From Sulfurimonas sp. (GTDB lineage: Bacteria; Campylobacterota; Campylobacteria; Campylobacterales; Sulfurimonadaceae), in the NCBI GenBank assembly GCA_016744115.1, contig JADGEZ010000006.1, positions 1 through 64,000 on the forward strand: a stretch of 64,000 bases of DNA. The letters are read 5' to 3'. Made by a program: the position numbers and the translations under genes. The notes under the pieces are model-generated. The model worked only from the letters and a program-made list of their open reading frames with translations, was not told the origin of the DNA and made no database searches. Position 1 is the first letter of the stretch. Each line of letters starts with the position of its first letter. Shown one piece after another: positions 19,929 through 53,101 of the stretch.

Positions 19929-21442
19929 TGATGAAGACAATATTTTTAAGTATCATCCTTTTTACAGAGATATTAGCATCAACCTTGCATCTCGCTACAT
20001 CAGCAAATCCCTCAAGGTTAAACCCTATCTTAGCAACTGATTCATCTTCCTCAGTTATTGCAGGGTTTATATTTAATGGACTTGTAAAATACGATAAAGA
20101 CTCTTCAACTATCATAGGCGATTTAGCAAGTTCATTTTATTATGAAAATAATACAACTCTAATTTTTGAGTTAAATAAAAAAGTATTATGGCATGATGGC
20201 GAAGCTTTTAGTGCAAAGGATGTTGTTTTCACATACAAAACTCTCATCTCAGATAAAATATCTTCCCCCTATAGTGCTAACTTTAGATTTGTAAAAGATG
20301 TAGAGATTATTAACAATCACAAGATAAGAGTGACATATACAAAACCATATTTTAAAGCCTTAGAAACATGGATGATGGGGATAATCCCTCAACATCTCTT
20401 AAAAGATACAAAGAACCTAATGAGTGCAAAGTTTAACACAAAACCTATAGGAACAGGAGCGTATAAACTTCATACTTTAGAGCATTCAAAAAATATTGTT
20501 TTATCCGCTAATGAAGAATACTTTTTAACAAAACCAAAAATAGATAAGATTTCTTTTCATGTCATCGCTGATCCAATGACAAGATTTTTAATGTTAAAAG
20601 CATCTTCTTTAGATGTAGGAGCTATAGAGCCCATACAGTATGAGAGGCAACTAAACGATTCGTTTTTTGAAAACTTCAACATATACGAAGAGATAAGTCA
20701 TTCATACACATACCTAGGCTTTAATCTTAGACGAGAGAAGTTTCAAAATCCTAAAGTAAGACAAGCCTTGTCTTTAGCTATTGATAGAGATGAACTTGTT
20801 AAAATTTTATTTTTTAAACATGCAAAAGTTTGTACTGGTCCTTTTTTACCAGCTACAGCAGCCTTTAATACAGATGTAAAAGCACCCACTCGTGACATAA
20901 AAAAAGCGAAAAGACTTTTAAATGAAGCTGGGTATGATGCTAACAATCCCTTTGAATTTGAGATTGTCACTTCAAACTCAAGCAGTATTAGACCTTATGC
21001 TGCTCAAATATTGCAACACCAGTTAAAGCAGATTGGAGTTATTGTTAAGCTTAGGGTGATGGAGTGGCAAGCATTTTTAAACATGGTTGTATTTCCCCAT
21101 AAATTTGATGCTGTACTTTTAGGATGGGGTTTATCATCCACTCCTGACCCTTACCTATTTTGGCATACAGATTCTGATAAAAAAGGTGGCTTTAATTTAG
21201 TGGGCTATAATAATCCTAAAATTGATAAGATGATTGATGCTTCTCAAAGTATGATAGATAGAGATAAACTAGCTCTTATATGGAAAGATATGTTTAAAAT
21301 AATAGTAGAAGATAACCCCTATCTTTTTTTATACATTCCAAATTCTATTACCGCCGTAGATAAAAATATTAAAAATATACAACCAAGTTTAAGTGGTATT
21401 TGGCACAATCAAATTTTATGGGAGAAAGATATTCACAAGTAG
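19928..21442 (+). CDS. Peptide ABC transporter substrate-binding protein (SBP family 5)
   Basis: LHLATSANPSRLNPILATDSSS, KVLWHDGEAFSAKDVVFTYKT, VRQALSLAIDRDELV. The 3' end contains the att repeat. Confidence 0.85.
   Translation: MMKTIFLSIILFTEILASTLHLATSANPSRLNPILATDSSSSVIAGFIFNGLVKYDKDSSTIIGDLASSFYYENNTTLIFELNKKVLWHDGEAFSAKDVVFTYKTLISDKISSPYSANFRFVKDVEIINNHKIRVTYTKPYFKALETWMMGIIPQHLLKDTKNLMSAKFNTKPIGTGAYKLHTLEHSKNIVLSANEEYFLTKPKIDKISFHVIADPMTRFLMLKASSLDVGAIEPIQYERQLNDSFFENFNIYEEISHSYTYLGFNLRREKFQNPKVRQALSLAIDRDELVKILFFKHAKVCTGPFLPATAAFNTDVKAPTRDIKKAKRLLNEAGYDANNPFEFEIVTSNSSSIRPYAAQILQHQLKQIGVIVKLRVMEWQAFLNMVVFPHKFDAVLLGWGLSSTPDPYLFWHTDSDKKGGFNLVGYNNPKIDKMIDASQSMIDRDKLALIWKDMFKIIVEDNPYLFLYIPNSITAVDKNIKNIQPSLSGIWHNQILWEKDIHK
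21403..21419 (+). repeat. Left attachment-site repeat
   Basis: GCACAATCAAATTTTAT, identical to 29435-29451. Confidence 0.8.
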
Positions 21443-21532
21443 TCACAACTCCCTATACAAGCCCCTTAACAGCGATACTTTAAGAATAGATTAAACTACA
21501 AATAGCTACAATAACGCATAAAATGTTACAAA

Positions 21533-21576
21533 AAAGTACACCTTAAAGTACACCTTTTTGTTTTCAAAAGTACACC
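21533..21576 (+). promoter_or_regulatory. Putative integrase arm-type sites (left)
   Basis: AAAGTACACC at 21533, 21545 and 21567. Confidence 0.55.
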
Positions 21577-21597
21577 CTAGCAATTTAAAGGATTTTA

Positions 21598-22800
21598 ATG
21601 AGTGAATACATAAGCATAAATATACAAAATAAGGACTGCAAAGGGATGTTTCTTTTTGCTAAAAGTGAGAGTAAAGAAATACTAAATGTTAGTGAGGCAA
21701 ATAAACTTATAGGTAAAGTATTTAAAATTCAGTTAAGAACTAGAGTAGATGGAGTGAGAGGAAAAAAAACATTTTCTTTTGAAAAGCATAAAACTACTTT
21801 TTTAAAAGCTATTGAGTTTGTGGCAAGTAAAAGAACTGGAGCGAGACAAAAACTAAAAGAGGAGGGAACACTTAGAAAAAAGGTAATTAAAAAAGTGATA
21901 GACGCAAAGAGATTATTTGTAGATGAGATAGACCCATTCTTAGACACCAAGTCAATCGTAGTGAGAGACAATACTATAAGTGTTTATAAAACCGCCCTAA
22001 AAACTCACGCTAAACCATTGCATAAGATATTTATAGAAGATATTCAAATCAAAGATATACAAGATATTGTATCTAAGCTATCAAAGAGTAAAGCCCCTGC
22101 AACAGTCCAACTCTTTGAGCGTTCATTAAGAGTATTTTTAAAAGAGTTAAAAGTACCTATCGCCTCAGCGTGGAATGAACTCAAACTACCAATAGTAGAT
22201 AATGTTAAAAAATATACACTCAAACTTGAAGATACAAAAAGGATAATTTCTTGCATGAGAAACTACAGCGGTACTACAGTAGATGGAGAAACCTTTTATG
22301 TATTTGAAGAGGTTAGAAATATGTTCACATTCTTACTTACAGGTCGCAGAGTAAATGAAGTGATAGGATTAAAATACAGTGATATAGATTTAGAGAACAA
22401 AACTTTTACAATACCACCTGCAAGAGCTAAGGGCAAGGTAGAGTTAAAATTTAACATTGATGATAATCTATTACAAGCCATTCAAAGCCAAGCACGGATA
22501 AATAACATAGACCTAAGCAAAGAACTACAAGACAAAATCTTATTTGACTACTGCCGAGAAACACCACGCTATCACTTCCAAAAACTCTTAGTATCTATGG
22601 GCTTACCAAAGTTAAGGCTACACGACATAAGGCACATGTTAGCAAGTACACTTATACAAAATGAGGTAGCTATAGCAGATGTATCAGTAATGCTAGGACA
22701 TTCAAGTATAAAGACAACCGAAAAGAGATATGCGAACAAATCGCCAGACCAAGCAAGTCGAGCTACTAATGCTTTGAACAATATTATAGGGGGTGTGTGA
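21598..22800 (+). CDS. Tyrosine recombinase/integrase
   Basis: LLTGRRVNEVIGLKYSDID, LRLHDIRHMLASTLIQN, MLGHSSIKTTEKRYANKS. Confidence 0.92.
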   Translation: MSEYISINIQNKDCKGMFLFAKSESKEILNVSEANKLIGKVFKIQLRTRVDGVRGKKTFSFEKHKTTFLKAIEFVASKRTGARQKLKEEGTLRKKVIKKVIDAKRLFVDEIDPFLDTKSIVVRDNTISVYKTALKTHAKPLHKIFIEDIQIKDIQDIVSKLSKSKAPATVQLFERSLRVFLKELKVPIASAWNELKLPIVDNVKKYTLKLEDTKRIISCMRNYSGTTVDGETFYVFEEVRNMFTFLLTGRRVNEVIGLKYSDIDLENKTFTIPPARAKGKVELKFNIDDNLLQAIQSQARINNIDLSKELQDKILFDYCRETPRYHFQKLLVSMGLPKLRLHDIRHMLASTLIQNEVAIADVSVMLGHSSIKTTEKRYANKSPDQASRATNALNNIIGGV

Positions 22801-23357
22801 TGAATACTAATAAAAAATTAAGTGTAGGTGAAAATCCAAAGGAGCTTTTAGAAGTAATAAAACAAATACACGGTATAGATTTAATTCGAGATTTTATTAA
22901 AAGTAGTAATAAACTAGCAAGAAGAAAGAATAAAAGTGTTAATAGTTATGTAAAGATTGCTATATATGTGTATGAGTTAGTACATCATGAGGGTTATTGT
23001 AAAACTAGGGCAATTGAAAAGGTGGCTGATATATATAGTCTTAAAGATAATACAGTTAGAAACCATTGTGCATAATTTGATAAAGAGGCTAAAGAATATG
23101 ATTTTTATTCTTTTGGTGTGTTCATTGATTTTTTACAACAAGGAGCTATTTCTCAGGGGTATCAAAATAATTCTACATATGAAATAATAAGACTTGCTTC
23201 AAGTCACAATGATATAAGTGAAAAAATAGGAAATACTTACTACTATAAATATAAGAATTTAACAGCTAATAAAAAAAAGAAAATGACTACTAGTAATATA
23301 TATAAATTTGTAAATCCATTAACTGAACAACAATATACTAAAGATGAACCATTTTGA
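22797..23357 (+). pseudogene. Hypothetical element protein interrupted by one in-frame TAA (ORFs 22797-23075 and 23118-23357)
   Basis: Both ORFs are in the same frame; a single TAA at 23073-23075 separates ...VRNHCA from FDKEAKEYDFYSFGVFIDFLQQ.... Confidence 0.55.
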
Positions 23358-23513
23358 TACTAAAGTTATACTAAATACATACTAATAATGTACTACTAAA
23401 CTATCAAGCCGATACCAATGCAATACCACTAGAAAAGCCCTATTTCGTGGTATTTACTTAGTGTTAAAAATATGCAATAATTCCCTATAAATAACAATAT
23501 AGGAGCTTATCAC

Positions 23514-23723
23514 ATGATAACAAACTACGACAACTTAATCCCCCAAGGTGTACTCTTCAATCTTAGACAAATAGAAGATATGAACTTAATTAAAATGGAT
23601 ATGGCTAAAAAGCTTATCTCTAATAATGCACTAGAAACAGTACGCATAGGTACAAAACTTCATATCTCAAGAACCGAGCTGATAAGATACCTCAACGATA
23701 ACACAAGCCAAATATCAGCATAA
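23514..23723 (+). CDS. AlpA/excisionase-like helix-turn-helix protein
   Basis: 69 aa; MDMAKKLISNNALETVRIGTKLHISRTELIRYL resembles an HTH_17/excisionase fold. Confidence 0.55.
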   Translation: MITNYDNLIPQGVLFNLRQIEDMNLIKMDMAKKLISNNALETVRIGTKLHISRTELIRYLNDNTSQISA

Positions 23724-23848
23724 GGCGGTGGCAACAGCTACCGCTTAGACTTCATACAAAACTAACTTATGAAGTCTTAGGGCTAGCTTCCCATACCCAT
23801 TTAGAGGGTAGATACAAATATTTGTAAATTTATTACAAAGTAAGAATA

Positions 23849-24628
23849 ATGCAAAATTTTAAAATAGACACCATCAACGGAAAAGATGTAGTTATAGATA
23901 TTACAAAACTGATTAGTGATGAGGTGCTTTATATAAATGCTACTAAGATAGCTAAACAATTTGGAAAAGATAAATATAATTTAAGAGATTATTTTAAGTC
24001 TACTGCTTTTTTAGAGTATGAAAATGCTATTTCTAAAGTGAGAAAAAACCACCACTTTAAAACAGAAGAAAAAGGCTTAAGATATTCTATAAAAGGAAAA
24101 TACGGAGGTACTTATCTTCATAGTGATTTAGTCATAGTATTTTTAAGATGGTTAAATGTAGATTTTGCCGTTCAATGCGATATGTACATCAAGAACACCA
24201 TCCAAGAGATACACAATGATAAAATAATTTCTAATGCAACAGCTCAAGCAAACAAAGAAAATACAGACTGGATACAAGCAAGAGAAAAAGCAACAGATAC
24301 ACGCAATAAGCTTACCGATGTGATTAAAGAGTTTTGCCAATACGCCCAACAACAAAGAGGCTCATTTTATAAAGATGGTAAATGCCCCTACTATGCAAAA
24401 CTTACAAGCCTGGTATATAAAGCCTTGAAAATTAAGAAGCCTAAAGGTACAAAGACTATAAGAGATGTATTTAATGGTGCGGTGGTTCAAAAGATAGAGA
24501 ACCTAGAAGAGATGCTAATAGAACTTTTAAAAAGCTACATACAGCAAGAAACAGAATATCACGAAGCTTTTAAAATCACTCAAGAGATAATCAAGTACGA
24601 AGTAAGCCTATTGGATGAGGTAGCTTAA
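23849..24628 (+). CDS. KilA-N domain protein
   Basis: YINATKIAKQFGKDKYNLRDYFKS...GGTYLHSDLVIVFLRWLNVDFAVQCDMYI. Confidence 0.85.
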   Translation: MQNFKIDTINGKDVVIDITKLISDEVLYINATKIAKQFGKDKYNLRDYFKSTAFLEYENAISKVRKNHHFKTEEKGLRYSIKGKYGGTYLHSDLVIVFLRWLNVDFAVQCDMYIKNTIQEIHNDKIISNATAQANKENTDWIQAREKATDTRNKLTDVIKEFCQYAQQQRGSFYKDGKCPYYAKLTSLVYKALKIKKPKGTKTIRDVFNGAVVQKIENLEEMLIELLKSYIQQETEYHEAFKITQEIIKYEVSLLDEVA

Positions 24629-24952
24629 ATGAAAAAGCCTAATTATGTATCACACTATCTAGTGCTTAGTGATTTACTAGCAAACATTGATGTGAGAAAA
24701 CATAGCGATATTGTGTTCTATCTTACTTCACGAATAGAAAATATAAAAAGTGATTTAGTAAAAAGCGGTATTGAGTTTATCGAAGATGTTTCAAGGGAAA
24801 GTAGATACTCTCACTACAAGCCTTATATCTTACAGCCTACAACTGATAACCTCAACAAAGCAAAAGAATTGCTTAAAAAATATACAACTGATGAGGTGCT
24901 ATCTTTTTTAGAAGATAAGCCTTACTCAGATGAAAGTAAAAGGGGTTATTGA
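24629..24952 (+). CDS. Hypothetical element protein
   Basis: 107-aa ORF tightly packed between neighbours. Confidence 0.55.
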   Translation: MKKPNYVSHYLVLSDLLANIDVRKHSDIVFYLTSRIENIKSDLVKSGIEFIEDVSRESRYSHYKPYILQPTTDNLNKAKELLKKYTTDEVLSFLEDKPYSDESKRGY

Positions 24953-25604
24953 TTCCCTAAACTTTAGTAGCGGTAACTTAGAAGCGTTATTTAAAAATGA
25001 AGAAAATTATAGCATAGAAGCAGTTAAAAGTATAGGGGTATTTGAACCTAAGCTATGGAAAGAAATCTTTAACAAACCATTAACAAAAAACATAGTAGAA
25101 GCTAAAATACTCCACACTACAACAGGTTTAACCTTGCCTATCAAACGCTTTTCAGTAAGCCAAACGAAACAGACGATAGAGTTTGCAGGGCTTCACGGTT
25201 ACAATGATAAATCTAAACACCTAAGTGAGCTACTTAAAGAGATATGGGAACATATACAAGACGAAAGAATAACTAGGTTAGATGTAGCGATAGACTTTAA
25301 AGGAATGATACCTCTAAGGGTTATTAAAAAGCTTTGTAAGGATAGAGAACCTTTTAGGTTTTGGAATACAACATACTACAAAACTAAAAAAGAAAAAAGA
25401 ACAAATACTCGTTTGAATATTAAGACTTACAATAAGAGTAGAAGAATTAATAATTTAACAGAGGAGGTAGAAAGATTAGAGTTTAGTTTTACAAGTCAAT
25501 ATTTACAGAATATTACTATTAAAAACTTAGATAAAGCGTTTCAAAAAATGGAGAAAACTATCAAGCGAATTAGTGACTTAGATGTAGAAATATTGTACCT
25601 CTAA
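24930..25604 (+). CDS. Rep_trans-like replication initiator
   Basis: RITRLDVAIDF, RLNIKTYNKSR and EVERLEFSF in the order seen in rolling-circle Rep_trans/RstA-like proteins (from memory). Confidence 0.5.
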   Translation: MKVKGVIDSLNFSSGNLEALFKNEENYSIEAVKSIGVFEPKLWKEIFNKPLTKNIVEAKILHTTTGLTLPIKRFSVSQTKQTIEFAGLHGYNDKSKHLSELLKEIWEHIQDERITRLDVAIDFKGMIPLRVIKKLCKDREPFRFWNTTYYKTKKEKRTNTRLNIKTYNKSRRINNLTEEVERLEFSFTSQYLQNITIKNLDKAFQKMEKTIKRISDLDVEILYL

Positions 25605-25783
25605 GTTATTAACCGTACTTTTTCATCCAAAACCCCAACAAAGCCCAAAATATAGGGCTTAAAGAGGGGTGAAAAAGTGAACGCTAAAAACAGCCCTAAA
25701 ATGAGCTTACAAAAGATAAGATAAACAAATATAATGAGTAAGAAAAAATCAATTAAAAACACAAAAGAATAAGTGAGGAATAA

Positions 25784-26056
25784 ATGAATAAAAATAGACT
25801 TAAAAAGCTAGAGGATTTATCAGGTGCAGAGGAAACAGAACCAACAAAGACTATTACATTTTCTTGTGACGATACAGATGGAATTTGGAGCAGAGAGGAT
25901 AATAGTATTATTACAGAAGAAGAAGTAGCAGTTTATACAACTGATGATACATATTTCGTAATACTAATAACCTGGACAAGTAATATTAAACTTACTGATG
26001 AGGTATCTCGTAGTCTTGAAGTAGCAGAGAAAAAGTATCTTAATAAAAAAGGATGA
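25784..26056 (+). CDS. Hypothetical element protein
   Basis: 90-aa ORF; stop overlaps the next gene. Confidence 0.55.
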   Translation: MNKNRLKKLEDLSGAEETEPTKTITFSCDDTDGIWSREDNSIITEEEVAVYTTDDTYFVILITWTSNIKLTDEVSRSLEVAEKKYLNKKG

Positions 26057-26514
26057 ATATGGCACGAACAACAATAACAGATAAGATAATCACTCAATGC
26101 AAAGATTTATCCTCACAAGGCTTTAGTAACATTATGATTAGTAAATCTTTGAACATTGCAATAGCAACATTATCAAAGAATAGGAAATTAGTACAATCTA
26201 TTCAAGAGGGTAAGCAAGATTTAGCAACAAGAGTAACAAAAAGTATCTTAGATAGCCTAGACGAAAGCCAAGATAGGTTATTTATTGCTAAAAGATTAAA
26301 CCTCTTTAACCCTCAGATTAATATCAAAAAACCATCCAATGCAAAAGAAGCACTTAACAATTTATCAACAGCCATTAAGCAATATGCAGATGGAGAGATT
26401 AACGAGAGCCAACTAAGGACTATCGAGGCGGTTACAAATAGTTATGTTAAAGCTTATGAAGCTACAGAACTAGAGGAGCGAATACAAGCACTAGAAAAGT
26501 TAAAAGAAACCTAA
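26053..26514 (+). CDS. HTH protein resembling phage terminase small subunit
   Basis: N-terminal HTH (GFSNIMISKSLNIAIATLSKN) followed by a helical region; 153 aa. Confidence 0.4.
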   Translation: MNMARTTITDKIITQCKDLSSQGFSNIMISKSLNIAIATLSKNRKLVQSIQEGKQDLATRVTKSILDSLDESQDRLFIAKRLNLFNPQINIKKPSNAKEALNNLSTAIKQYADGEINESQLRTIEAVTNSYVKAYEATELEERIQALEKLKET

Positions 26515-26551
26515 GAGGTGGCTATCACTCAAAAATGAGTAATGAGAAAAA

Positions 26552-26572
26552 GAGGGGGTAACGAATCCCCTC
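26552..26572 (-). terminator. Second terminator-like hairpin of unit A
   Basis: Minus strand GAGGGG-N8/9-CCCCTC followed by TTTTTCTC; equivalents at 26865-26885 and 27166-27185. Confidence 0.55.
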
Positions 26573-26696
26573 AAAAAGCTAATACAGTTCTACAAGGTAG
26601 CCGAGTATTAACAACAAGTTAATTGTTTTTAGAAACAAAAAAGTTTCCTTTATTGCAATCTAACCCCATAACCCACCATCTACAAAAGTATAGACC

Positions 26697-26781
26697 AAAA
26701 AAAAGCCCTCATACTAATTAAAGTACAAGGGCTTAATTGCAATAAAGAGGTAGTTATCCTCAAAACTATTAACTTGTTTCA
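26697..26781 (-). ncRNA. Putative small RNA, copy A
   Basis: Extended -10 TGATATACTT upstream on minus; hairpin GAGG-ATAACTA-CCTC; terminator AAGCCCTTGTAC...GTATGAGGGCTT + T8. Confidence 0.55.
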
Positions 26782-27008
26782 GTAGAAGTATATCAAAATA
26801 TCATTTAATAGTCTAACGTGTACCGATGTGATACAGCTTGTAAAGAGATTAGTAATGAGAATAAGAGGGGTTTATGAATCCCCTCAAAAAGCTAATACAG
26901 TTCTACAAGGTAGCCGAGTATTAGCAACAATAAGAAAACTCGATACAAGAAGTAACCCCCTTATATTACACTCTAACCCCATAACCCACCATCTACAAAA
27001 GTATAGAC

Positions 27009-27091
27009 CAAAAAAAAAGCCCTCACATTAATTAAAATGCAAGGGCTTAAGCGTATGAGGTAATAAGCCTCCGAGTTTTCTTTTTGTACAA
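27009..27091 (-). ncRNA. Putative small RNA, copy B
   Basis: AGATATACTT -10-like box; hairpin GAGG-CTTATTA-CCTC; terminator AAGCCCTTGCAT...ATGTGAGGGCTT + T run. Confidence 0.55.
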
Positions 27092-27302
27092 GCAAAAGTA
27101 TATCTGAATATTATTTAATAGTCTAATCTAATACAGTTTGTAAGTAAAGATTAATAATGAGAAAAGAGGGGCGATTAACCCCCTCTCCTTACTAAAATAG
27201 CTTAGTTAAGTAACCAAGTATTAGCAATGTGATTATAACCTTTTCCAAGGTTTCAGCCTTTAAAATAGCACTCCCACCCAACACTACCCACTTTTACAAG
27301 CT

Positions 27303-27385
27303 AAAAAAAAAGCCCAACTACCCATAAAAAGTAGTTGAGCTTTGCAGTACTATAAGGTAATCAACCTTAGATTATAATCATCACG
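27303..27385 (-). ncRNA. Putative small RNA, copy C
   Basis: TGATATACTT box; hairpin AAGG-TTGATTA-CCTT; terminator AAGCTCAACTAC...GTAGTTGGGCTT + T9. Confidence 0.55.
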
Positions 27386-27422
27386 ATAAAAGTATATCAA
27401 AATATCGTTTAATAGTCCGAAA

Positions 27423-27586
27423 TTAACCCTCAAACTCTTTTTTAACCAATACAGCAATAATCTTACTCATTGTAATACCTCTTTTTCAGAAAGTATTTTA
27501 AGTCTCCTATGCGTTTCTTCGCTCACTCTCATATTTTTAACACTATTTAGTTTATTAATTCTTTTCAAAAAATCCCCTACTTGCAT
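27423..27586 (-). pseudogene. Ribbon-helix-helix protein gene with an apparent 1-nt frameshift
   Basis: MQVGDFLKRINKLNSVKNMRVSEETHRRLKILSEKE continues as ITMSKIIAVLVKKEFEG only after a frame change. Confidence 0.5.
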
Positions 27587-27795
27587 ATACCGCTATCTTT
27601 AAGCATACTTTTTAACTCTTTACAGTCTTTGTTTTCTATGTAGAGTTTAAGCCATGATGAGACCCAATACGGATAACCTCTATCATTTGTACCCCATCCA
27701 TTAACAGCATTATAAGAAGTATCAAGTATTTCAGCAAAAGATTTTTTAGTTAAGTTTGCCTTTTTTAATAATTCTTTAAATTTATCTCTATCCAT
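27577..27795 (-). CDS. Small HTH repressor-like protein
   Basis: 72 aa; LLKKANLTKKSFAEILDTSYNAVNGWG resembles an XRE-type HTH. Confidence 0.55.
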   Translation of the reverse strand: MDRDKFKELLKKANLTKKSFAEILDTSYNAVNGWGTNDRGYPYWVSSWLKLYIENKDCKELKSMLKDSGICK

Positions 27796-27821
27796 TTATA
27801 ACCTCTATTTTTATATTTAAC

Positions 27822-27931
27822 ATACAAAAGTATATCATATTATATAAAAAAGATACAAATGTATTTATATTAAGTTCTATTTAAAATACATTAGTATATA
27901 CTTCTTGCATATAAAAAGTACATAAGTACTT
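27822..27931. promoter_or_regulatory. Cluster of four putative operators (TAC-N4-GTA palindromes)
   Basis: ATACAAAAGTAT 27822-27833; ATACAAATGTAT 27853-27864; ATACATTAGTAT 27886-27897; AAGTACATAAGTACTT 27916-27931. Confidence 0.6.
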
Positions 27932-28237
27932 AATAGGACAAAAACAATGAACAACAAAACCCAACCAACATAAAAAGAAACCTCAAAAGAAGTATCTAAT
28001 CCATCTTATAAAAGCATAGCTACATAAGAAAGACGATAGCAAGGCTAGAAGCGATTAAAAACAAAAGAGGGGGAAACAATGGAGCAAGTAATAAAAACAG
28101 CAAAGAAACCACCTTAGGTATGTTTTTTGTGTATATCGTATGATTAACTGATGAACACCTACAGCCGAGGTAACTTAAACTCAAAGTTTACCCTTAGCTA
28201 GGTACAGAAGAACCAAACCCAAATAAAAGAGGACACT

Positions 28238-28351
28238 ATGAAGATAAAAGTATTTACAACAAGCAACAGCTACAAAATAGTCAATGTATCAAATGAAGAT
28301 GATATTAAAAAGATAGCAGATAAATTTAACAGATGGGAGTATGTACTATGA
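28238..28351 (+). CDS. Hypothetical small protein (37 aa)
   Basis: MKIKVFTTSNSYKIVNVSNEDDIKKIADKFNRWEYVL; upstream AGAGGA; ATGA overlap with the next gene. Confidence 0.5.
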   Translation: MKIKVFTTSNSYKIVNVSNEDDIKKIADKFNRWEYVL

Positions 28352-28704
28352 GTAAACAAACAAAACTAAAAAGGATGTACACCATGAACCAGTACTACAA
28401 GTATAAATACTTAGACTTAGAGATAAGAGCAGTAGAGGGTATTAATATCGTTGTAAATGAAGCAATAGATAACCTCTTAATTGATATTGAAAATATAAAA
28501 GGTAAAAAGGAGCGTATGACTATGATGTTAGATTTTATGCTAACTACAAGGGTACAAATGAATTTACTAGGTCGTGCCATATCTTCACTAGATGGATGCA
28601 ACAATACTTTTAACTTGAATGGGGATAAGTTGCCAAATAAACATATAAAACCTCACTCAGATAATGAGTTTAAGAAGCAGCACATAAAGTTTAGAGTTGG
28701 ATAA
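28348..28704 (+). CDS. Hypothetical element protein
   Basis: The ORF track begins at 28333; ATG at 28348 is coupled to the upstream stop. Confidence 0.5.
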   Translation: MSKQTKLKRMYTMNQYYKYKYLDLEIRAVEGINIVVNEAIDNLLIDIENIKGKKERMTMMLDFMLTTRVQMNLLGRAISSLDGCNNTFNLNGDKLPNKHIKPHSDNEFKKQHIKFRVG

Positions 28705-29135
28705 TACTGATCATCTAGTAGAAAGTAATAGCTACTTCACTTTTATGTAGCTATTAGATGTAAATATCGGATAGACTTCATACAAAAAAATATTCAATAA
28801 CAAAACCCACACACTACAAAATCAAACCATCAATAGAAATCATTTAAGGTACTTTGGAGCTTTTTTTGTGTTGGGAGAGTGGCAAGACGCCCACAAAAAA
28901 ACTATTTATCATCTTTTAAAAGTCACCCCTTTTTATCTTACCGTAGGTACTTTGGGGGGAATTGTTAAAAAAGAGGGGAAATAAGGAAAAATCAACCCTT
29001 GATAATCTATCTCGTAGGTTTTAATAATATGAGCTACAATCTTGAATATTTAAGGAGTTTTAGCAAAAGTTTTTTAAACAGCTAATAAAACTTAATATGC
29101 TACAATCGCATACAAATAGCTATCAAAGGATATTT

Positions 29136-29333
29136 ATGCACACTATAAAATTACAAGTAGATGATACAATATACAATGATATTATAAAAAGCGGTGTAAA
29201 TATACAAGAAGAGTTAAAGAATGCACTCCATAAACTTATATATAAAACAGAGCATAAAATAGCAAGTGATATAAATCAATCCATGCAAGATATAAAGCAA
29301 GGTAAATCTAAGCCAATCTCAGAGCTACTATAG
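29136..29333 (+). CDS. Antitoxin-like small protein
   Basis: MHTIKLQVDDTIYNDIIKSG...SMQDIKQGKSKPISELL resembles type II antitoxins; no partner toxin adjacent. Confidence 0.4.
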   Translation: MHTIKLQVDDTIYNDIIKSGVNIQEELKNALHKLIYKTEHKIASDINQSMQDIKQGKSKPISELL

Positions 29334-29367
29334 TATTAAATGTTATAAAAGATATAAATCCATAAAA

Positions 29368-29389
29368 AAAGGACACCTAAAAGTACACC
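29368..29389 (+). promoter_or_regulatory. Putative integrase arm-type sites (right)
   Basis: AAAGGACACC at 29368 and AAAGTACACC at 29380; same 12-bp phasing as the left pair. Confidence 0.5.
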
Positions 29390-29434
29390 TTTTAAAAACA
29401 CAGCTACTTTAAGCCCCTACAGTAGGCAAACCTT

Positions 29435-29451
29435 GCACAATCAAATTTTAT
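29435..29451 (+). repeat. Right attachment-site repeat
   Basis: GCACAATCAAATTTTAT, identical to 21403-21419. Confidence 0.8.
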
Positions 29452-52726: not shown

Positions 52727-53101
52727 GGGGACGATTTGGCTTCGACTGGAGTTGGTGGTCTATGATTGCATGTCGGACTGAGCATCTCCGTTATACGGCT
52801 CATAATTGCTTAAACGCAAACAATACAAATTACCGCCCAGCTTACGCAGTAGCATAAGTTTTACCCCCTCTTAGAGGACGGGCTGCTTCACCTATGGACT
52901 CTAGATAAATAGGACTCGAAGTATAACCCTTATGTAGATATATACAGAGTGTGTCTCGCCTTTGTATGAATTTAGAGGCTCGTTTTGTGTAGCTTTGCAA
53001 GTTGTGTGAAGCAAAATTAAATTTTAACAACTTCTCTAAACATGTAGATGTCACAGAAACCCAACTTTAGGACTGCGGTTCGATCCCGCACGTCTCCACC
53101 A
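52727..53101 (+). ncRNA. ssrA: Transfer-messenger RNA
   Basis: 5' GGGGACGATTTGGCTTCGAC; tag ORF 52816-52857 ANNTNYRPAYAVA*; 3' GGTTCGATCCCGCACGTCTCCACCA pairs with the 5' end. Confidence 0.97.

Follow-up and report, generated by a model that had tools for sequence, protein, structure and literature searches.

What do the three tandem, structured repeats carried by an integrated element of Sulfurimonas sp. encode: free RNAs, or something that extends beyond them? In the window, by which we mean the whole 64,000-nt stretch of DNA analysed, a first-pass annotation had described three minus-strand units at about 26535–27420, spaced 293–314 bp apart, as copies of a free-standing RNA gene of ~80 nt that was proper to an ~8-kb element and possibly aimed at its replication, at immunity or at host or helper-phage genes. 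Repeat analysis bears out the three related units and their spacing. The -10-like boxes, the hairpins (GAGG-ATAACTA-CCTC, GAGG-CTTATTA-CCTC and AAGG-TTGATTA-CCTT) and the terminators, each a hairpin followed by U8 or U9, are present exactly as they had been read; the upstream promoter block common to the units occurs three times against 0.00 expected, and terminator-like sites number seven against 0.8 expected. What the earlier reading missed were a small ORF, a second terminator and the pairing of distant arms across the unit. Here we argue that each unit is, on balance, likely to be a toxin–antitoxin-like module with one promoter, one strand and a silencing leader, probably serving in the window to stabilise the element.

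Each unit extends for ~240 nt from promoter to second terminator, in the order leader, U-run, G-rich block, Shine–Dalgarno (SD) site, hydrophobic ORF of 18–19 aa, and terminator (Table 1), and the ~80-nt RNA corresponds to the leader part alone. The sequence gives good grounds for a leader of ~82–85 nt with its end at the U-run, whereas a free-standing RNA gene of that size is disfavoured. The unit continues for ~150 nt beyond the supposed terminator into the small ORF and a second terminator. Fold z-scores of the full units (-6.84, -6.57 and -5.02 for c1, c2 and c3) are more striking than those of the ~80-nt RNAs (-3.4 to -4.8), whose folding energies are -23.6, -22.5 and -25.1 kcal/mol on the minus strand vs -19.1, -20.8 and -18.4 kcal/mol on the plus strand. 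In each copy, inverted arms of 12–20 nt flank the mid-transcript hairpin (T1), and their sequence differs from copy to copy (inverted repeats I2, I4 and I11); the earlier impression of a structured-RNA family in which sequence changes while pairing is kept stands. In primary sequence, no part of the family is more conserved than the G-rich block (c3 copy at 27273–27291, minus strand, GTGGGTAGTGTTGGGTGGG). We considered a G-quadruplex role for this block but abandoned the idea, there being only three G3 tracts.

Table 1. Coordinates of the units, of the element that carries them and of plasmid relatives. Positions are those of the window except in the last row. HP1, kissing hairpin of the leader; T1, mid-transcript hairpin; T2, 3' terminator hairpin; a1, leader arm.
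Feature	Position	Strand	Details
Integrated element, ~8.03 kb, with the three units	21403..29451		17-bp perfect direct repeats GCACAATCAAATTTTAT (D11; 21403-21419 and 29435-29451) and integrase
c1 promoter block	26787..26814	-	AGACTATTAAATGATATTTTGATATACT; -10 TATACT at 26787-26792
c1 predicted leader RNA, ~85 nt	26697..26781	-	a1, HP1, T1 and U8; 5' end inferred via -10 box, 3' end via U-run
c1 arm a1	26759..26778	-	complement of ORF start; inverted repeat I2, 90%
c1 HP1	26747..26761	-	loop ATAACTA; TAAC/GTTA complementarity to 3' terminator loop
c1 T1	26705..26732	-	then U8 at 26697-26704
c1 small ORF	26579..26638	-	TTG start; MFLKTINLLLILGYLVELY; homologous ORFs in 61 units
c1 T2	26552..26572	-	GAGGGG[ATTCGTTAC]CCCCTC
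c2 promoter block	27097..27124	-	-10 TATACT at 27097-27102
c2 predicted leader RNA, ~82 nt	27010..27091	-	fold prediction
c2 arm a1	27072..27087	-	partner 26927-26942; inverted repeat I4, 94%
c2 HP1	27057..27071	-	loop CTTATTA; TTAT/ATAA with c2 T2 loop
c2 T1	27019..27046	-	then U9 at 27010-27018
c2 small ORF	26892..26948	-	TTG start; MYRVFLLLLILGYLVELY
c2 T2	26865..26885	-	GAGGGG[ATTCATAAA]CCCCTC
c3 promoter block	27391..27418	-	-10 TATACT at 27391-27396
c3 predicted leader RNA, ~83 nt	27303..27385	-	fold prediction
c3 arm a1	27369..27380	-	partner 27230-27241; inverted repeat I11
c3 HP1	27353..27369	-	loop TTGATTA; GATTA/TAATC with c3 T2 loop
c3 T1	27312..27340	-	then U9 at 27303-27311
c3 small ORF	27192..27248	-	TTG start; MEKVIITLLILGYLTKLF
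c3 T2	27166..27185	-	loop GTTAATCG
Plasmid relatives, C. coli and C. fetus, transfer gene block	L177 2607-2921; L178 3001-3093; L179 356-439		ORF unannotated

The integrated element itself, as previously proposed, is confirmed by an integrase and by perfect direct repeats at its ends. Its genes include a tyrosine integrase, a KilA-N protein and a helix–turn–helix (HTH) protein, and no capsid or portal gene was recognised among the ten element proteins scanned. An imperfect 29-nt repeat lies inside both ends (21530–21558 and 29365–29393), where it could represent integrase arm sites. Upstream of the HTH gene (27577–27795), a stretch at 27808–27843 on the minus strand shares the promoter-like sequence GATATACTTTT with the three units, and this gene may be co-regulated with them inside the element. 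The window also contains a tmRNA gene (52727–53101), with the tag ANNTNYRPAYAVA.

How far the family extends beyond this element was judged at several levels. DNA BLAST (E <=0.01, weak matches included) found relatives in 64 of the 229 genomes of Sulfurimonadaceae, and a model built from 34 units matched 80 of the same 229, with up to seven matches per genome; at the level of the order it matched 30 of 400 genomes and 15 of 87 genera. This model (R1) mainly captures sequence, since the automatic consensus structure, drawn from a mixed alignment, had three pairs only. When 85,488 species were scanned for the pattern, 45 stretches were returned, all from Campylobacterota save three; these, from Bacteroidales, Spirirestis and Beijerinckiaceae, lacked the unit layout and were treated as chance. 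A fourth copy in the host genome, of peptide class V (see below), lies on another contig, and several homologs sit directly behind ordinary-looking chromosomal genes; thus the family is not confined to the element. DNA BLAST of the window units against phages and plasmids gave no match, and neither the promoter-block pattern nor the core pattern occurred in viral contigs. Rfam covariance models, run at gathering and at relaxed thresholds, gave only sub-threshold matches over the units, in keeping with the earlier remark that no described family was recognised, and we found no description of the family in the open-access literature, the part of the literature that was searched. The units and their dozens of relatives in the order, some of them on Campylobacter plasmids, suggest a toxin–antitoxin family that seems not to have been described.

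For statistics we assembled 61 diverse, non-redundant units with an ORF, mostly from Sulfurimonas, out of BLAST loci, pattern loci and the window. We omitted the three chance hits, L054, L078 (truncated), one near-duplicate, four loci without a qualifying ORF (L044, L034, L057 and L056), and two whose called ORF fell short of a full member peptide (L060 and L047). Five of these loci (L034, L044, L047, L056 and L057) still have the leader with its U-run, but their small ORF has been deleted, replaced or interrupted.

The small ORFs encode hydrophobic peptides of 18–27 aa across the 61 homologs. They fall mainly into group L (..LLLILGYLTKLF, 18–19 aa), group H (..HTVGYLLIATIYIVFAFKQ, mostly 24–27 aa) and group V (MYNKLVLITLILMFLFTVRLY, about 21 aa), beside a form in Arcobacter (MFFKLAVLLLIFLIFAIKLY). 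Entropies at the three codon positions are 1.15, 0.53 and 1.39 bits in class L and 1.01, 0.59 and 1.34 bits in class H, and stops close frame 1 in all homologs and frame 2 in most. The small ORF is conserved as protein, and the entropy pattern is that of a conserved membrane peptide. Five representative longer peptides had no match in NCBIfam and, in Pfam, one weak match under the cut-off (Sarcolipin, E 0.017); neither database placed them in Fst/Ldr, and the 18–19 aa window peptides are too short for such a scan. The size and hydrophobicity of the peptide suggest that it is a toxin.

The most specific complementarity of the leader is to its own ORF start and its own terminator loop. When the leader front (43 nt) was paired with the translation-initiation region in the 61 units, cognate duplexes averaged -27.2 kcal/mol vs -14.9 kcal/mol for mismatched ones, a preference reached in none of 20,000 permutations (made without a tree model) and retained after thinning to 56, 46 and 36 sequences. 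In a four-by-four matrix of the host genome, every ORF start is best paired by its own leader. The sister units c1 and c2 are alike over the 3' half of the ORF (100% identity), from the U-run to the SD site (87%) and in the 3' UTR (85%), and differ in the pairing arms (43% in a1, 60% in a2). Joint divergence of the arms with the surroundings kept would be expected if sister modules must not silence one another, and is the best hint that the leader acts in trans; recombination could be an alternative source of it.

A second complementarity links the loop of HP1, a hairpin picked by position and energy and blind to the other loop, with that of the 3' terminator T2. At least four Watson–Crick pairs join the HP1 loop to its own T2 loop in 92% of cognate vs 25% of non-cognate combinations, and none of 20,000 permutations, again without a tree model, equalled this match, either overall or within peptide classes. 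The complementary loops take many forms: TGATTA/TAATCA, TGGTC/GACCA, GTGGTT/AACCAC, TTGGC/GCCAA, GTAGC/GCTAC, TAAC/GTTA and TTAT/ATAA, and there is one self-complementary version, AGCT. Comparison of the whole 5' leader with the whole 3' UTR gave a weak signal, so that a loop-only test was needed to reveal this relationship.

A -10 box lies on the sense strand in 60 of the 61 units, and all 61 carry T1 followed by U7 or more between leader and ORF. The U-run was used to locate units, so that its presence is partly a matter of selection, but the strength of the hairpin was not selected: T1 averages -20.0 kcal/mol with U8.8, and T2 is weaker (-10.8 kcal/mol, U3.0). A strong terminator-like hairpin with such a U-run in every homolog makes it likely that the leader also exists as an RNA of its own. 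In structure predictions, arm a1 is unpaired to 52% in the leader alone vs 16% in the full RNA, and the openness of the translation start is 0.28 in the full-length vs 0.40 in the leaderless form, being lower with the leader in 45 of the 61 units (Wilcoxon p 2e-6). The predicted starts of c1 and c2 gain nothing from loss of the leader (0.36 vs 0.35 and 0.23 vs 0.23), and removal of the leader may thus not suffice to switch these two on.

From the layout, the constraint on the ORF, the private pairing and the loop complementarity, all of which can be read in the sequences, we propose the following course of events. Most transcripts would stop at T1 and yield a leader sRNA of ~82–95 nt. Those that read through would fold on themselves, the leader pairing with the ORF start and one loop with the other, and make no peptide. 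The leader sRNA would act in trans to silence mRNAs that had escaped folding, e.g. after processing; released by premature termination, the leader would probably also be the antitoxin. The peptide would be a membrane toxin of the Ibs/TisB/AapA kind and, given that the units are located inside the element, the modules of the window would most likely stabilise it. Among the points against this explanation are the very conserved G-rich block, to which it gives no role, and the TTG starts of all three window ORFs.

The complementarities would equally serve a fold acting purely in cis, and every one that we tested falls inside a single transcript. The main rival is a self-silenced mRNA whose leader folds back on its own ORF, with T1 merely lowering read-through, activation by processing or melting, and no trans antitoxin. 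There is precedent in the aapA mRNA of Helicobacter pylori and in hok, which are silenced by long-range folding, aapA being activated by processing of its 3' end (PMC6733600). We consider this unlikely, though a serious contender, as the terminator-like hairpin and U-run shared by all homologs point to a separate leader RNA, the arms of c1 and c2 have diverged jointly as though discrimination between paralogs mattered, and L034, L047 and L056 retain a leader without the ORF, although these loci may be decaying. That the ORF-lacking alleles exist, together with predicted sequestration of the start, multiple copies per genome and a location on conjugative plasmids (below), is typical of toxin modules and speaks against a membrane peptide made deliberately at low level for signalling or regulation; in favour of such a peptide, which we rate as improbable, the case for toxicity comes from size and hydrophobicity.

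A separate cis-antisense antitoxin transcribed off the opposite strand is how the nearest known type I family, aapA/IsoA, works in the same bacterial group (PMC6733600, PMC8322730), and would make the units classical type I loci. From the SD site to 40 nt past the ORF, however, antisense -10 boxes show no excess (43 found vs 52.1 expected; a promoter unlike TATAAT would be missed), none of the 61 leaders contains an antisense terminator, and the complement of the G-rich block, sought in the host genome as a trans-encoded antitoxin, occurs there only as unit c3's own copy. An opposite-strand antitoxin is thus unsupported, and we rate it as distinctly improbable. Least credible of all is a free ~80-nt regulator of replication, immunity or host and helper mRNAs beside an accidental ORF: its leader–terminator part is real, but the ORF is conserved in 61 homologs and privately paired with the leader, and the family is far wider than the element. 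We retain the one-promoter module with a silencing leader as the preferred reading.

Relatives that share this layout are spread over several families of Campylobacterales. One more distant form encodes a peptide of 28–31 aa (MDYLNFSIAVIAVIITLFREEIREVLFKLGK and kin) and has its parts in the order seen in the window family: promoter, hairpin, T1 with U9, G-rich stretch, ORF and terminator. Duplexes of its leader with the SD region range from -14.8 to -24.7 kcal/mol, and in seven of eight cases the two loops are complementary at four or more positions. A tblastn search with this peptide matched 21 plasmid records, all from Campylobacter (C. jejuni included) and 19 of them typed as conjugative. 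In the four regions examined, the unit sits within the transfer gene block, e.g. between the VirB8/TrbF and trbL genes, and the ORF is unannotated in all four, one record having a hypothetical protein there on the opposite strand.

Taken to its full extent, the proposal is that a complete toxin–antitoxin pair can reside in a single transcription unit, in which the 5' leader, cut short by premature termination, is the antitoxin, antisense to the toxin start and docking by a kiss between the 5' loop and the 3' terminator loop, and that such units form an order-wide superfamily of Campylobacterales, in which peptides are interchangeable and pairing codes private, on chromosomes, integrated elements and conjugative plasmids. 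We advance this tentatively, giving it a little less than an even chance. If it is true, a type I toxin–antitoxin pair would not require two genes, each with its own promoter, and one promoter with a leaky terminator could yield the two partners at a built-in ratio, an arrangement hitherto associated with type III systems. It would also bring into view, across an entire order, a class of modules that has gone unannotated, including conjugative Campylobacter plasmids, where plasmid maintenance matters practically, and the natural pairing codes would offer a test bed for the evolution of antisense specificity after duplication.

Among known systems, aapA/IsoA of H. pylori resembles the units in its occurrence in Campylobacterota, its multiple copies, its hydrophobic toxin of ~30 aa and its mRNA silenced by a 5'–3' interaction (PMC6733600, PMC8322730). 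It differs in that its antitoxin is a cis-antisense RNA of the opposite strand, of which no conserved trace is seen here, and in that its anti-SD lies at the 3' end rather than in the leader; neither a mid-leader terminator nor loop–loop pairing was seen in the parts of its description that were consulted. Ibs/Sib of E. coli is similar in peptide size, IbsC having 19 aa and remaining toxic at 15 aa with at least ten hydrophobic residues (PMC8309996), although its antitoxin, SibC, is an RNA of its own instead of a leader on the toxin mRNA. Type III systems (ToxIN) share the DNA order of promoter, antitoxin RNA, terminator hairpin and toxin ORF (PMC8860590), and the intervening terminator is present throughout our homologs, with the U-run part of the selection. 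Their antitoxin RNA, however, consists of tandem repeats and binds a ribonuclease protein, whereas in our units the RNA is complementary to an mRNA that encodes a tiny peptide, and in the 61 homologs no ToxN-like ribonuclease ORF but one of 18–27 aa follows it. The par locus of pAD1 (Fst/RNA I–RNA II; Fst/Ldr family) differs in having a convergent antitoxin RNA that shares a bidirectional terminator, while our units have the two parts on the same strand after a single promoter, antisense -10 boxes are not in excess, and the five representative longer peptides showed no similarity to par/Fst peptides in Pfam or NCBIfam. In par, a YUNR U-turn in the terminator loop helps to start contact between toxin and antitoxin RNAs, and a second site masks the toxin start (PMC7472228). 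It is in these two separate pairing sites that the likeness lies, as the T2 loop carries YUNR in 49 of the 61 units and a leader arm is predicted to lie over the start.
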